Below, in pieces: positions 48,635 through 54,661 of a stretch of 64,000 bases of DNA (the stretch's first letter is position 1; each line of letters opens with the position of its first letter). The DNA is taken from NCBI RefSeq assembly GCF_025370785.1, contig NZ_JAMXFA010000002.1, positions 62,001 to 126,000 of the forward strand, read 5' to 3'. The position numbers were made by a program, and so were the translations under genes. The stretch is from Laspinema olomoucense D3b (GTDB lineage Bacteria > Cyanobacteriota > Cyanobacteriia > Cyanobacteriales > Laspinemataceae). The notes under the pieces were generated by a model. It did not search any database, had not been told where the DNA came from, and saw only the letters and a list, made by a program, of their open reading frames with translations.

Positions 48635-49501
48635 TTATCCGCGTAAATGCTGACGGAGTGCTTGACCCATGATATCAACGGGCACGGGGCGATCGAGCCA
48701 AATTTGCAAGGCGGCAGCCCCTTGTTGGACTAACATTTCTGAACCATCGATCGCCTCTGCGCCCACTGCCTGCGCCTGTCGCAAAAATTCTGTAGGACTT
48801 GGGGTGTAGATGAGATCATAGGCGATCGCCCCCTGGGGGAGGGTTCCTAGGAGGTCTGGGGTCACCGGCGAGTGCCCCACATCCGGATACATTCCCACCG
48901 GGGTGGAGTTCACCAGTAATCCCGCCTGGGGTATGAGTTGTGGCAGTTCTGACCAGTCATGGACCGAGAGATTGACCAGCCAAGGGGAATCCTGCCAACT
49001 GGTTTGAAATGCCTGTAATTTGTCCAAATTCCGGCCCACAACACAGATTTGGGCACAGCCTAACTGGGCTAAACCGGCAACTACAGCCCGCGCAGCCCCC
49101 CCGGCCCCTAAAATAACGGCGAGGGTTTGATTCCAGGGGCGATCGCAACTCTGCAACGGGGCGAGAAATCCTTCCACATCGGTATTTGTGCCTGCCCACC
49201 CAGTGGGAGTGCGCCAGACGGTATTCACCGCCCCCACCGCCTGAGCAACGGGAGAAATCTCCGATAACAGAGGAATAATGGCCTGTTTGTGAGGGATGGT
49301 AATGCTAAATCCGCGCACCCCAATGGCAGCAAAACCGGCAATAGCGGTGGATAAATTGGCCGGGGCGACTGGCCAAGGTAGATAGACAAAATCTACCCCC
49401 ATTTCGGCGATCGCCGCATTGTGCATCACCGGAGAAAGGGAATGCTTCACCGGATAGCCGATGACACCGAGTAATTGAGTTGTTCCTGTAATAGTTGGCA
49501 T
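48635..49501 (-). CDS. aroE: Shikimate dehydrogenase
   Basis: 288 residues. It reduces 3-dehydroshikimate to shikimate with NADPH in aromatic amino-acid synthesis. The substrate-binding 'HSLSPVMHNAA' (about 19-29), catalytic-lysine region 'GFSITIPHKQAI' and 'NTVW..GTNTDVEGF' (Asn/Asp) are present. The NADP fold is 'VILGAGGAARAVVAGL' and 'STPVGMYPD' is conserved. Full length. The ATG is preceded by a purine-poor region, but the start aligns with the family. Confidence 0.95.
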   Translation of the reverse strand: MPTITGTTQLLGVIGYPVKHSLSPVMHNAAIAEMGVDFVYLPWPVAPANLSTAIAGFAAIGVRGFSITIPHKQAIIPLLSEISPVAQAVGAVNTVWRTPTGWAGTNTDVEGFLAPLQSCDRPWNQTLAVILGAGGAARAVVAGLAQLGCAQICVVGRNLDKLQAFQTSWQDSPWLVNLSVHDWSELPQLIPQAGLLVNSTPVGMYPDVGHSPVTPDLLGTLPQGAIAYDLIYTPSPTEFLRQAQAVGAEAIDGSEMLVQQGAAALQIWLDRPVPVDIMGQALRQHLRG

Positions 49502-49818
49502 GGGCTAAAAAAGCGGATTCCTGACACCTGTTCGTGAATACGGTTAGAGTAGAGTTCTAACTACTGTCCCGCCCCTTGATTTTATGTCACAATTTTGAAT
49601 AAGAACCGTAAAAAAAGCGCGTTCGGCTCAGGGTTATGAAGGGCTGGAGATTTGTAAAACACTCAACTTCAGGGAATTCTACCGAAATATTAGGGTTGTT
49701 CAGGTTAATCGGTGATTTGTACATAGACAACCCTCTGCTGTCATACCCGCTTCCAGCCCCTGGCATTGATGGTTGAGCTTGGCGGCCCTATTTTGCTTTA
49801 GTGGACTAGAATTTTATC

Positions 49819-50919
49819 ATGAAAAGACTCACCTATATTAGTAAATTTTCCCGCACCCTCTCCCATGACGATATTGAGGCGATCGGTCGCGTATCCGCTC
49901 ACAAAAATCAACAAGCAAATGTGACCGGCGTGTTGCTCTGTTTGGACGGGATATTTTTTCAAATCCTCGAAGGCGAAGCGGAGAAAATTGACCAAATTTA
50001 TGACCGAATTCTGGCCGATGAGCGTCATACGGATATTCTCTGCTTAAAATCGGAAGGGGAAGTCGTCCAAAGAATGTTTCCCGATTGGTCCATGCAAACC
50101 ATTAATTTGGATGAAAATACTGATTTGCTAATTGGACCGATTAAGGTATTATTGCAGACTCTCACCGAATCCCATCGCGTGTTGGAAAAATATACCCAAC
50201 CCAGTATTTTTAAAATTATTAGTCAAGGGATTAATCCCCTAAGCATTCGGCCCAAAGCAGTCGAAAAAATTGTGTTTTTTAGTGATATTGTTTCTTTTTC
50301 TACCTTTGCGGAGAAACTGCCCGTAGAGGAGGTGGTTTCCGTGGTGAATAGTTATTTTTCAATTTGTACTGCCATGATTACCCACCATCGGGGAGAGGTA
50401 ACTAAATTTATAGGGGATTGCGTGATGGCTTATTTTGATGGAGACTGCGCTGATGACGCCATCCAAGCGAGTTTAGATATCTTGAGTGAACTGGAAAATT
50501 TAAGAAATGTTTCCCCCGAAGGGAGTCCGCTGCGGGTGCTCTACAGTGGGATTGGTTTAGCCAAGGGGAAAGTGATTGAGGGAAATATTGGTTCGGAAGT
50601 GAAAAAGGATTATACCATATTAGGGGATGCGGTGAATGTAGCAGCTCGCTTGGAAGCCTTAACCCGCAAGTTATCCCAAGCCTTAGTTTTTTCCGGGGAG
50701 GTCAAAAAGAGTGCGGCGAAATCTTGGGACTTTATTTGGTTAGCAGATTCGGCATTGAAAGGAAAATCGGAATCAATAGAGATTTATTCAATTGATAATG
50801 AAATGACGCGAAAATCCAGCGGTGGATTAGAAATTGCGCGGAATATTGGGCATTATTTGGAACGAGTGGGCGATCGCGAACCTAGTCAGATTTTTGGGGT
50901 GACCAGTTTGCCACTATAA
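49819..50919 (+). CDS. Photoactivated adenylate cyclase (BLUF + class III cyclase, OaPAC-like)
   Basis: A 366-residue blue-light-activated cyclase making cAMP from ATP. Residues 1-95 are a BLUF domain binding FAD non-covalently, with the photocycle residues Tyr6, Asn30, Gln48, Trp90 and Met92 all present. A linker helix at about 100-130 leads to a class III cyclase domain (about 145-325): metal residues Asp156 ('FFSDIVSFS') and Asp200 ('TKFIGDCVMAYFDGD'), Lys196 fitting ATP selectivity, and 'YTILGDAVNVAARLEAL'. The C-terminal ~40 residues follow the family. Length and most positions match Oscillatoria acuminata OaPAC from memory, with scattered changes. Monocistronic; light-driven cAMP signalling (motility or development) is inferred. 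Confidence 0.95.
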   Translation: MKRLTYISKFSRTLSHDDIEAIGRVSAHKNQQANVTGVLLCLDGIFFQILEGEAEKIDQIYDRILADERHTDILCLKSEGEVVQRMFPDWSMQTINLDENTDLLIGPIKVLLQTLTESHRVLEKYTQPSIFKIISQGINPLSIRPKAVEKIVFFSDIVSFSTFAEKLPVEEVVSVVNSYFSICTAMITHHRGEVTKFIGDCVMAYFDGDCADDAIQASLDILSELENLRNVSPEGSPLRVLYSGIGLAKGKVIEGNIGSEVKKDYTILGDAVNVAARLEALTRKLSQALVFSGEVKKSAAKSWDFIWLADSALKGKSESIEIYSIDNEMTRKSSGGLEIARNIGHYLERVGDREPSQIFGVTSLPL

Positions 50920-51903
50920 GGAAGTCCGTGCATGGGGTGCATCTTGACTCAACCTCACTTGGACATCGGTTTTTGGGGGAAGATCAGCCCCTGGAAACCG
51001 GGAGATGACGGCGGAGTTACCTGCCTCAGTTGGATTCCCCGGATGAGGGAACTCCTGTATCTTGGGACGGGAATCTCTCCCTGGCGATCGCCGTGCCCAA
51101 ACCGGCCGATCTATAAAATTTTGATAAACCTCCTCCCGATTTTTCAAAAAACTTTATAATAGCTTTAACTGAATCAGGGAACCGGCTGTTCATCGGCCCT
51201 CACATCCATCAGTGATCTAAATTTTTCATCAGACTGAACTGACTCTATATCTCCTCAAAACAGCCCAATTTTTCCCTCCCCCTACCGATTGACATTTATC
51301 AAAATTTATGGCCCGCTTGACCCGAAATTGGATATAAACGGGGTCTTGTACCCCCGTTTTCCACCTTCTTCGTGTTCTGCGAAATAACGCTTTAAAGCGA
51401 GTGTATCAGCAAAAACCTTGAATAATCCCCTCAAAATCAAGGGTTTCCAACCTCTTCCTTGCTGAAGGCTACCTCACTCCCCAAGGCCAATTCCCATTCT
51501 TCTCCAAACTCAGCACAAAGATAGAGTGACTGACTTAGAACATAGAGGAAACTAATAAGCAAAGCCTACCCCAAGAAAACCTCAGCCCTATGCAGGGTCA
51601 GGTTACAGGAACAGATTTTCTGAAAAATATCCTGTCTTCTCGGGCTGGCGAGTCGGTATGACATGAATAGAACAAGAACCCCGGTTTCTCGCTCTATGTT
51701 GTTGCCAAATCGGTGAAATTTTCTAAGGGGAACGGGTTTATAACAGCGGCTATCCCGCTACCCTGGGGTCAACAATCACTCTAAGTTATACCTGTGGGAT
51801 TCGACCCGAATCCGCCTAAATTTTACCCTTGTAGTTGAGAAATTCAGCAAAAAGCATCCCTTCTATTCACTTATTTTGAAGAGTTTACCCGAGGTATTAC
51901 AAC
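50920..51903. other. Long spacer after the cyclase gene
   Basis: About 1 kb with no convincing gene; short open frames at 50914-51159 on both strands mirror each other and lack start signals. AAACGGGG/CCCCGTTT at 51336-51360 forms a hairpin followed by TTTT and may be a late terminator. The last 200 bases, A/T-rich with a GAGG before the next ATG, hold the promoter and ribosome site of the SGNH gene. Confidence 0.5.
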
Positions 51904-52809
51904 ATGAAAAAGATAAATCTCACCCTGACATCTGCGGGTTTTGCGACCCTAGTGCTTTTGGGTGCAACCTCCTCTACGGTACAAGCCTTTTCTTTAACTC
52001 AGTCCAACCCCTTGAAAATTATGCCATTAGGGGATTCTAATACCCGAGGCAAAGGTGAGGACGTTGCGGGCTATCGAGATGACCTCTGGATGCGGCTGAA
52101 TGACAGTGGATTCAATGTTGATTTTGTGGGGAGTGCTACCACGAATCCCCCCAGTAGTTGGAATCAACCCTATCCATTCGATCGCGATCATCAGGGTCAT
52201 GGTGGATATGCCGTTAGCGGGGACACCTACGCCACTGGCGGTGATTTGATGTCCAACATCGATAACTGGCTGAATGCCGCCACTCCCGATGTCATCCTGT
52301 TGATGGCAGGAACTAACGACTTTATCTTTCAGAAGACAACAACTGCCCAGGAAACCCTTGATGAACTGGGTACATTACTAGATAAAATCTTTGCTTGGTC
52401 GTCCGATGTAGCTGTATTGGTTAGCTCGATCGCCCCGTTAGCGCCCAAGGAAGGATTAGCACAAGAAGCCGCTTTATACAATAATATGATTCCGGGTCTG
52501 TTAGGCAGCGATCGCTATCAACAGAATAACCTCTCCTTTGTGGATACCCGCAATTTGTTTACCCTGGATGATGTCTATGATGGGGTTCACTTTACACCCG
52601 AGGGTTACTCCACCTTAGCCAATGCCTGGTTTGATGGGATTGTTTCCGCCTCTAATGTAGGTCAACCTCCTATAAGTCCGATCGTCGTTGAAACTCCCGG
52701 ATCAGACGACCCAGTTTCTATACCTGAACCGACTTCTGTATTAGGACTCTTAGCATTCGGTTTAGTTGGCGCAGGATCGTTACGCAAACGCCGTCATGTT
52801 TCTCCCTAA
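51904..52809 (+). CDS. SGNH/GDSL hydrolase, PEP-CTERM anchored
   Basis: A 301-residue secreted esterase-type protein. The signal peptide ends near 'TVQAFS' (about residue 29). SGNH catalytic blocks are visible: 'MPLGDSNTRG' (nucleophile Ser), the block II Gly region, 'LLMAGTNDF' (Asn) and 'DGVHFTPEG' (Asp-His). The C terminus is a PEP-CTERM signal: 'IPEPTSV', a helix, then 'SLRKRRH'. An exosortase would process it for surface or matrix attachment. The substrate may be an acylated polysaccharide or lipid. GAGG lies about 10 bases before the ATG. Second PEP-CTERM protein in the window. Confidence 0.9.
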   Translation: MKKINLTLTSAGFATLVLLGATSSTVQAFSLTQSNPLKIMPLGDSNTRGKGEDVAGYRDDLWMRLNDSGFNVDFVGSATTNPPSSWNQPYPFDRDHQGHGGYAVSGDTYATGGDLMSNIDNWLNAATPDVILLMAGTNDFIFQKTTTAQETLDELGTLLDKIFAWSSDVAVLVSSIAPLAPKEGLAQEAALYNNMIPGLLGSDRYQQNNLSFVDTRNLFTLDDVYDGVHFTPEGYSTLANAWFDGIVSASNVGQPPISPIVVETPGSDDPVSIPEPTSVLGLLAFGLVGAGSLRKRRHVSP

Positions 52810-53177: not shown

Positions 53178-54359
53178 TCACTGTCGATAGACGGGTAGGG
53201 TAAAGTGAAATGCACTGCCTTTATTGCAAGAAGAATCCACCCAAATTTCCCCACAATTGGCCCGAATTAATCGCTTACATAAGCCTAAACCGATTCCATA
53301 CCCATCTTTTTGCTCATCGCGCTTGAGGCGAAACTTATCCTCAAAAATATGCTCCTGATTTTCGGAGGGAATGCCGGGACCCGTGTCGATTACACTAACT
53401 TGAACCTTTTGTGTCGTGCGGTGCAAGATACAAACTTGAATTTCGCCGCCTTGGGGAGTGTACTTAATGGCATTGTCCAGAAGATTGACAATCACCTGGC
53501 GTACCCGTTCTCCATCGGCATAAACCGAGGGTAAATCGTTGGGAATGTCGGTTTTTAGGGTATGGGATTTTGCCAATAAGCGGTCTTTGAAATTTTCTAG
53601 GATGTTCAAAGTCAGGGTTTTGAGGTTGAGTTTCTTGGGATGAATGTGAAACTCGGCACTATTCGTGCTATGAGCAGCAACGAGGATATCTGAGATCATG
53701 CGATCGATCAGGCGGGTTTGAGTCCGGGCATGGTAAATTAATCGCGATCGCAGTGCCGATGCCGCCTCGGGACTGAGAGATTTTTCCGGTTTGTAAGTGA
53801 TTTCTAGGGTTTCTAAAGCCAGAGAAGCTGCCGTCAGAGGATTTCGCAACTCATGGGCTAACATGGCAATCAAGCGGTCCTTAAAATGCAGTTGGTCCAC
53901 CAGTTCTTCTTTTTCCTGCTTCAGGCGAAAAATTTCATCGGAGAGCTCCATCAGTTCAGCGGAATGTGCCAGTTCAGAAGAGATGCTTTTGCGGGGGTAA
54001 TGCCCGATCGCTTCTTCTGATGCCTGCTTGCTGAGATACTCTTCCACGGACTTTTGCCAGCGATCCCACCACTTATCCAGTTCTCCGACTAAATTACTAC
54101 CGGCGAGAACTTGTCGGGGTCCCGGGTGGAGTTTAATCAAAGCTGGAGTCGCGACCAGTTTAAACTGTTCCGCTAGATAAGGCTGTTCGCTGACATCAAT
54201 GATTTGCAAGTCAAAGGGGATACCTGTCCGCAGTTTCTGAAAATAACTGCGGATTCTGCGAATTTGTTCACTGGATCTCGGACGCCTATCAACAAATAGG
54301 ACAAGCTGTAAAGGTGCTTCATCGTTCTGATGCATGGTTTTTTCCGGAACTGCCCTCAT
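53178..54359 (-). CDS. sasA: Circadian output histidine kinase SasA
   Basis: A 393-residue kinase. Residues about 15-105 are a KaiB-like thioredoxin-fold domain ('QLVLFVDRRPRSSEQIRRIRSYFQ', in pieces) that binds KaiC. The catalytic part has the phospho-acceptor His169 in 'LIAMLAHELRNPLTAA', the N box 'VIVNLLDNAIKYTPQGG', G1 'DTGPGIP' and the final 'GYGIGLGLCKRLI'. In cyanobacteria SasA passes KaiC phase to the regulator RpaA; neither partner lies in the window. The ATG at 54359 has AAGGGG at 6 bases; an ATG at 54335 is the alternative. Divergent from the DUF2079 gene. Confidence 0.93.
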   Translation of the reverse strand: MRAVPEKTMHQNDEAPLQLVLFVDRRPRSSEQIRRIRSYFQKLRTGIPFDLQIIDVSEQPYLAEQFKLVATPALIKLHPGPRQVLAGSNLVGELDKWWDRWQKSVEEYLSKQASEEAIGHYPRKSISSELAHSAELMELSDEIFRLKQEKEELVDQLHFKDRLIAMLAHELRNPLTAASLALETLEITYKPEKSLSPEAASALRSRLIYHARTQTRLIDRMISDILVAAHSTNSAEFHIHPKKLNLKTLTLNILENFKDRLLAKSHTLKTDIPNDLPSVYADGERVRQVIVNLLDNAIKYTPQGGEIQVCILHRTTQKVQVSVIDTGPGIPSENQEHIFEDKFRLKRDEQKDGYGIGLGLCKRLIRANCGEIWVDSSCNKGSAFHFTLPVYRQ

Positions 54360-54661
54360 GCAATCCCCTTGCGGCAATGCGGCTAAAAAAGTAACACTGA
54401 TTTTGAGCTTGAGACAAGTGACTCGATCGCCCTAGCGATTCTTTTGTTTTTCTTTATATTTATAAATTATCCTGTTTATTGTCGATTCGTGAAAGAGTAC
54501 AAAGGATTCGACTCTTGTCACGACTTGACTGCCCAGAAGGAAAAGAGCTAGGGCCTCCGGACTGGTCTAAACCTACCCAATGGAACCTCAACTTTCAACC
54601 TGTTGAGGCAGCAGAACGTTTGTTGTCAAACCTTAACATTTTCTTAAGACTTAAGCGAGGA

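Follow-up and report, generated by a model that had tools for sequence, protein, structure and literature searches.

An OaPAC ortholog of Laspinema and the genus-specific C-terminus of its photoactivated adenylyl cyclases

Among the closest described systems are two photoactivated adenylyl cyclases (PACs), OaPAC of Oscillatoria acuminata and bPAC of Beggiatoa sp., which are 57% identical (PMC11533990) and of which bPAC is about 100-fold more active (PMC6937261). The two proteins also end differently, in that the last shared Glu is followed by three residues in bPAC versus 18 in OaPAC (PMC6937261). According to the available text of the same report, OaPAC lacking at least nine C-terminal residues was 30-60 fold more photoactive in HEK cells exposed to a single light level, and the fusion of 15 OaPAC tail residues to bPAC was without effect (PMC6937261). 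Residues 351-366 of OaPAC are missing from earlier crystal structures (PMC10634658). The comparison of natural PACs is an established strategy, as seen with bPAC, EuPAC, TpPAC, mPAC and LiPAC (PMC8522238) and with biPAC (PMC9624221). A literature search covering few subscription papers returned, among the matches listed, no study of other OaPAC orthologs of the genus, and no paper among these matches contained both “Laspinema” and “photoactivated adenylate cyclase.”

The window, a 64,000-nt stretch of the genome of Laspinema olomoucense D3b (G000; 7.02 Mb in 104 contigs), carries on the forward strand at 49819-50919 an intact ORF (ATG start, 366 aa, TAA stop) for a BLUF-class III adenylyl cyclase. 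A first-pass annotation had described it as a single ORF with both domains, equal in length to OaPAC and with substitutions scattered throughout, and this description is borne out: Pfam places BLUF at residues 1-93 (E 2.2e-27) and Guanylate_cyc at residues 152-325 (E 2.5e-16), both above cut-off, so that an N-terminal BLUF domain precedes a class III cyclase in one chain, which is the PAC architecture. In a phmmer search of the PDB sequences, OaPAC is the top match, aligned over 366/366 residues with no gap (E 1.1e-215), followed by bPAC (E 4.2e-127). The alignment with OaPAC is 89.6% identical, which excludes identity and leaves a close natural homologue with 38 substitutions, 11 of them in the BLUF flavin photosensor domain (aa 1-93; 49819-50097), five in the alpha3 helix and linker (aa 94-145; 50098-50253, a boundary of our own choice), 20 in the class III cyclase domain (aa 146-325; 50254-50793) and two in the C-terminus, which comprises aa 326-349 (50794-50865) and the tail, aa 350-366 (50866-50916), all on the forward strand.

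Twenty-four of the 25 positions singled out in the available text of OaPAC and bPAC papers are unchanged, the exception being D321E at one of the two residues of the OaPAC surface calcium site (PMC11533990). The key flavin-site residues Tyr6, Asn30, Gln48, Trp90 and Met92, previously listed as kept, are confirmed by the alignment, and the alpha3 signalling residues Leu111 and Leu115 are present together with the pair of Tyr125 in the linker and Asn256 in the cyclase domain. The active site retains Asp156 and Asp200, which we take to be the metal-holding residues, as well as Asp270, Asn273, Glu279, Lys196, Phe197, Thr266 and Arg277, the last four corresponding to K197, F198, T267 and R278 of bPAC by a shift of one in a register that was checked. 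The counterpart of bPAC H266 is Tyr265 in both OaPAC and the window PAC. R79, named near D67 in the available text of one OaPAC paper (PMC10448171), was set aside as a position, residue 79 being Glu in both proteins.

The 38 substitutions place A27/H28 beside K29/N30, change the beginning of alpha3 (F103L and R106G) and alter the inhibitory tail (K362T), and a protein so changed could still be light-gated with a photocycle or dark activity substantially unlike those of OaPAC; single changes are reported to alter the behavior of OaPAC (D67N; PMC10448171) and of bPAC (S27A; PMC8522238). Such a functional variant appears unlikely, given that D321, in the surface calcium site, is the only one of the 25 published positions compared that is changed. 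Moreover, S27A of the window PAC is not the dark-lowering S27A of bPAC, an equivalence that was rejected because the alignment pairs bPAC S27 with residue 26, a Ser in both. F103L was rejected as a peculiarity of the window PAC as well, since residue 103 is Leu in seven of the eight PACs of the genus, window included, and Phe in OaPAC alone, so that it is OaPAC that deviates there. Ten residues are unique to the window PAC among the eight (G16H, E18D, S27A, Q28H, R59Q, Q83V, E84Q, T138I, R189H and M223S), and because two of these, A27 and H28, adjoin K29 and N30 of the flavin site, the kinetics may differ from those of OaPAC. OaPAC in turn is the odd one out at nine positions, F103 included, and the laboratory reference is therefore not fully typical of its own genus.

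The best explanation, which we hold with great confidence, is that the locus encodes a single-copy OaPAC ortholog acting as a homodimeric BLUF-flavin blue-light receptor with light-gated cAMP synthesis and a C-terminal brake. By analogy with the OaPAC papers, from which the flavin chemistry, the dimer, the light gating and the tail inhibition are carried over, a homodimer with flavin in the BLUF domain would receive blue light, whereupon electron and proton transfer from Tyr6 would rearrange the hydrogen bonds of Gln48. The region of Trp90 and Met92 and the alpha3 coiled coil would relay the change from the flavin site, the two cyclase domains would then convert ATP to cAMP, and the C-terminal segment with its terminal hydrophobic nine-residue tail would keep the activity low. 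An AlphaFold model of the window PAC built with 13 sequences has a mean pLDDT of 63.1 and is unusable for the tail, the two final blocks having pLDDT 44 and 32.

A search of 59 genomes, namely the host and its relatives, found full-length PACs with 89-97% identity in all seven other members of the genus and with 63-67% identity in seven more distant genomes. The PAC of one congeneric genome (G004) is OaPAC letter for letter, and the window organism is therefore congeneric with the OaPAC source; besides this one, four of the seven are identical to public-record proteins of Laspinema, Phormidium and Oscillatoria, the named matches being Laspinema palackyanum D2a, Laspinema sp. D2d, Phormidium pseudopriestleyi FRX01 and Oscillatoria sp. 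HE19RPO 67. The gene stands divergent from aroE in the window (48635-49501, reverse strand, 317 bp from PAC) and in 14/14 other loci compared, with a gap of 315-317 bp within the genus and of 167-1666 bp elsewhere (14 loci), and a partial aroE lies at the same place in two further loci (L040 and L067). No aroE (E 1e-6, flanks of up to about 3 kb) was found beside the compared PACs of Pseudanabaena, Pseudomonadota, Spirochaetota and Bacteroidota.

Even sampling of the phylum, with only the best five candidates per genome scored, gave a PAC match at E 1e-60 or better in five of 386 genomes, host included. Relatives from Pseudomonadota, Spirochaetota, Bacteroidota and Thermodesulfobacteriota are among the matches listed in a separate database search. 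Such a patchy distribution would suit a recent horizontal acquisition in place of vertical inheritance within the family, but the presence of PAC in 14/14 family genomes, the conserved aroE neighbor and the single genus clade with support 100/100 in a maximum-likelihood tree of 43 PACs make this highly improbable. Older transfers between phyla are possible, several deeper forks of the tree being without resolution. The “natural variant” of the earlier description is thus indeed a homologue, now narrowed to a single-copy OaPAC ortholog that a sister species inherited vertically; the genus yielded eight in all. The eight genes have a mean dN/dS of 0.107 over 28 genus pairs (0.122 for the window PAC against OaPAC; 0.046-0.172 in the 13 pairs listed), which indicates purifying selection. 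These ratios, together with the intact 366-aa ORF in 8/8 genus genomes, render it exceedingly improbable that the gene is decaying or that its cyclase works without light gating in vivo.

In the host genome, class III cyclases gave 27 matches and BLUF a single one. PAC occurs once in each of the 14 family genomes examined, one of which is 87% complete, with no other BLUF protein beside it, and this makes it the natural candidate for BLUF-type sensing of blue light there. Among 120 genomes of the order, BLUF was found in 23, of which 11 have long frames (365-415 aa), counted as PAC from length only in G424, G435 and G455, and 12 have short ones (140-196 aa). These short frames, 13 in total and absent from the 14 family genomes, may be PixD, judging from their length only. 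That PAC and short BLUF proteins exclude each other (11 and 12 of the 120, none with both) was considered and rejected as not significant, since about one overlap is expected. Viral contigs gave one weak match, to BLUF only. In a distant cyanobacterium (G380), two PAC genes (L127 and L129) lie on the same strand about 350 bp apart and differ at their C-terminal ends, possibly the result of a tandem duplication.

The window PAC is an ordinary, expected ortholog of a well-known protein, and what is new is comparative, namely the genus-specific C-terminus and its low variability within the genus, as read from the aligned sequences. All eight genus PACs, window included, share a tail ending in IFG[VM][KT]SLPL, and residues 358-366 of the window PAC equal the published inhibitory tail of OaPAC except for K362T, a change common to three of the seven other members. 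Outside the genus, 37 distinct PACs with complete sequence all lack this tail, the best of them matching 5 of 11 tail letters. The comparison set consists of proteins that reach their own stop codon, drawn from the 59-genome search, the phylum sample and the best 80 matches of a database search, and is hence a sample of PACs; from 57 proteins handled, the exclusion of eight identical copies (L035-L039, L041, L042 and L126) and of four that are truncated, broken or running off the contig (L052, L065, L066 and L071) left the eight genus members and the 37 others.

Upstream of the tail, none of the 24 sites of residues 326-349 varies within the genus, although outgroups differ there. When only sites at which at least 40% of eight near outgroups differ are considered, 0/17 are variable within the genus in residues 326-349 versus 41/101 in residues 1-325 (Fisher p 3.5e-4, for a segment picked after inspection). 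A permutation over all windows, which corrects for the segment having been noticed before testing, gave p 0.0018, 0.0008, 0.0002 and 0.0002 for widths of 16, 24, 32 and 41, with the most depleted windows starting at residues 326-335. The C-terminus thus varies less within the genus than the divergence between genera predicts, mainly through residues 326-349; five of 17 sites vary in residues 350-366, and the final nine, taken by themselves, show no exceptional conservation (2/9 sites vary). Synonymous divergence is lower in residues 326-349 as well (dS 0.21 vs 0.31-0.50 in the BLUF, linker and cyclase parts), so that part of the conservation may lie at the DNA level, a hint that DNA-level constraint or gene conversion acts at 50794-50865 besides protein constraint.

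Although the variable sites of the tail and the low dS speak against it, our interpretation is that an inhibitory module specific to the genus may span the entire C-terminal segment and not just its last nine residues. Such a module would be consistent with the lack of effect of the OaPAC tail on bPAC, which suggests that the complete segment, or else a docking site, is required. In a tentative reading, which we regard as somewhat less likely than not, PACs of the genus would have acquired an autoinhibitory C-terminal module of about residues 326-366, composed of the invariant segment and the hydrophobic tail, and selection would have fixed it, making a weak PAC with a high light threshold out of a highly active one. 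If so, the roughly 100-fold lower activity of OaPAC relative to bPAC would be accounted for by the module, and sister-genus PACs lacking it would be naturally strong.

The gene had also been placed in its own transcription unit between two long spacers. A unit of its own is plausible from the layout, but promoter-like sites (4 vs 4.0) and terminator-like sites (4 vs 3.2) near PAC are about as frequent as in shuffled sequence. The spacers are indeed long, 317 bp toward aroE and 984 bp toward a GDSL lipase gene on the same strand as PAC (51904-52809), but they are unlike each other: the aroE-PAC gap (49502-49818) is 90.3% identical across the genus, versus 66.1% at four-fold sites of PAC and 75.8% at aroE four-fold sites, whereas identity is 78.5% in the 300 nt that directly follow PAC (7/8 genus sequences). 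Because its conservation far exceeds that of the four-fold synonymous sites, and because it contains a 37-nt run (49564-49600) invariant in 8/8 genus members, the gap points to a control region common to both genes, the run being a possible regulatory element for aroE and/or PAC. Twelve nucleotides of the run recur in the aroE-PAC gap of one other genus (L010), and the other six gaps compared share no run of at least 10 nt with it. Genome-wide, a 16-mer of the run has one exact site and four sites with two mismatches, versus two for the reversed control, a count so near the control that no regulon is visible.

A covarying RNA structure in the gap was rejected, as RNAalifold gave 87 pairs with no double compensatory change and an unfavorable covariation term. 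Rfam yielded two matches within 49300-52000, both below gathering; one is a STAXI RNA match at 51339-51450 on the forward strand, in the spacer between PAC and the lipase gene (22.8 bits against a gathering threshold of 40.5, E 0.036). Short ORFs at about 50914-51159 appear non-conserved because of frame-breaking gaps. Beyond the lipase gene, 2.3 kb downstream of PAC, the reverse strand encodes a KaiB-domain and HisKA/HATPase kinase that is SasA-like by domains (53178-54377); a SasA-like kinase lies 4.0-6.4 kb downstream of PAC in four of the seven other genus loci, and in the other three it is absent from the stretch compared.

In Synechocystis, cAMP rises in blue light through Cya1, whose photoreceptor is described as unclear, and CRP-type proteins have a role in motility by type IV pili (PMC7690835, in its available text). 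The host genome has 14 cNMP-binding matches, 11 of them above cut-off. A crude regular expression for the cAMP pocket, applied to ten of the 14 loci with some frames clipped, matches four proteins, none of which, as far as the partly clipped frames go, is of plain CRP size (229-239 aa). From the counts of cNMP-binding domains, cAMP made by PAC may act via CRP-type receptors on motility or mat behavior, and by analogy it is a reasonable idea that a direct light-to-cAMP enzyme would take the Cya1/CRP-like job in the host.

The eight same-length PACs of the genus and the tail-less PACs of sister genera form a natural mutational series around a studied optogenetic enzyme, which shows what parts of it evolution keeps, the brake-carrying end included, and makes it testable whether the genus-specific C-terminus keeps OaPAC weak. 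It is proposed that the window PAC would help to relate sequence to dark activity, light gain and photocycle.

Compared with known systems, PixD-type short BLUF proteins share the BLUF sensor with the window PAC, but their frame is too short for a cyclase. bPAC (PDB 5m27 and others) has the same BLUF-cyclase architecture, with homology over residues 1-341. The PAC of Laspinema palackyanum D2a (JAMXFF010000053.1) resembles the window PAC in sequence (97% identity), in its locus and in a tail with T362, and differs at 11/366 residues. OaPAC (PDB 4yus, 4yut, 5x4u, 9f1w and others) agrees with the window PAC in length, domain order, the 24 unchanged positions, C-terminal tail and gene neighborhood, but differs from it at 38/366 residues, chief among them F103L, R106G, S27A, Q28H, D321E and K362T.
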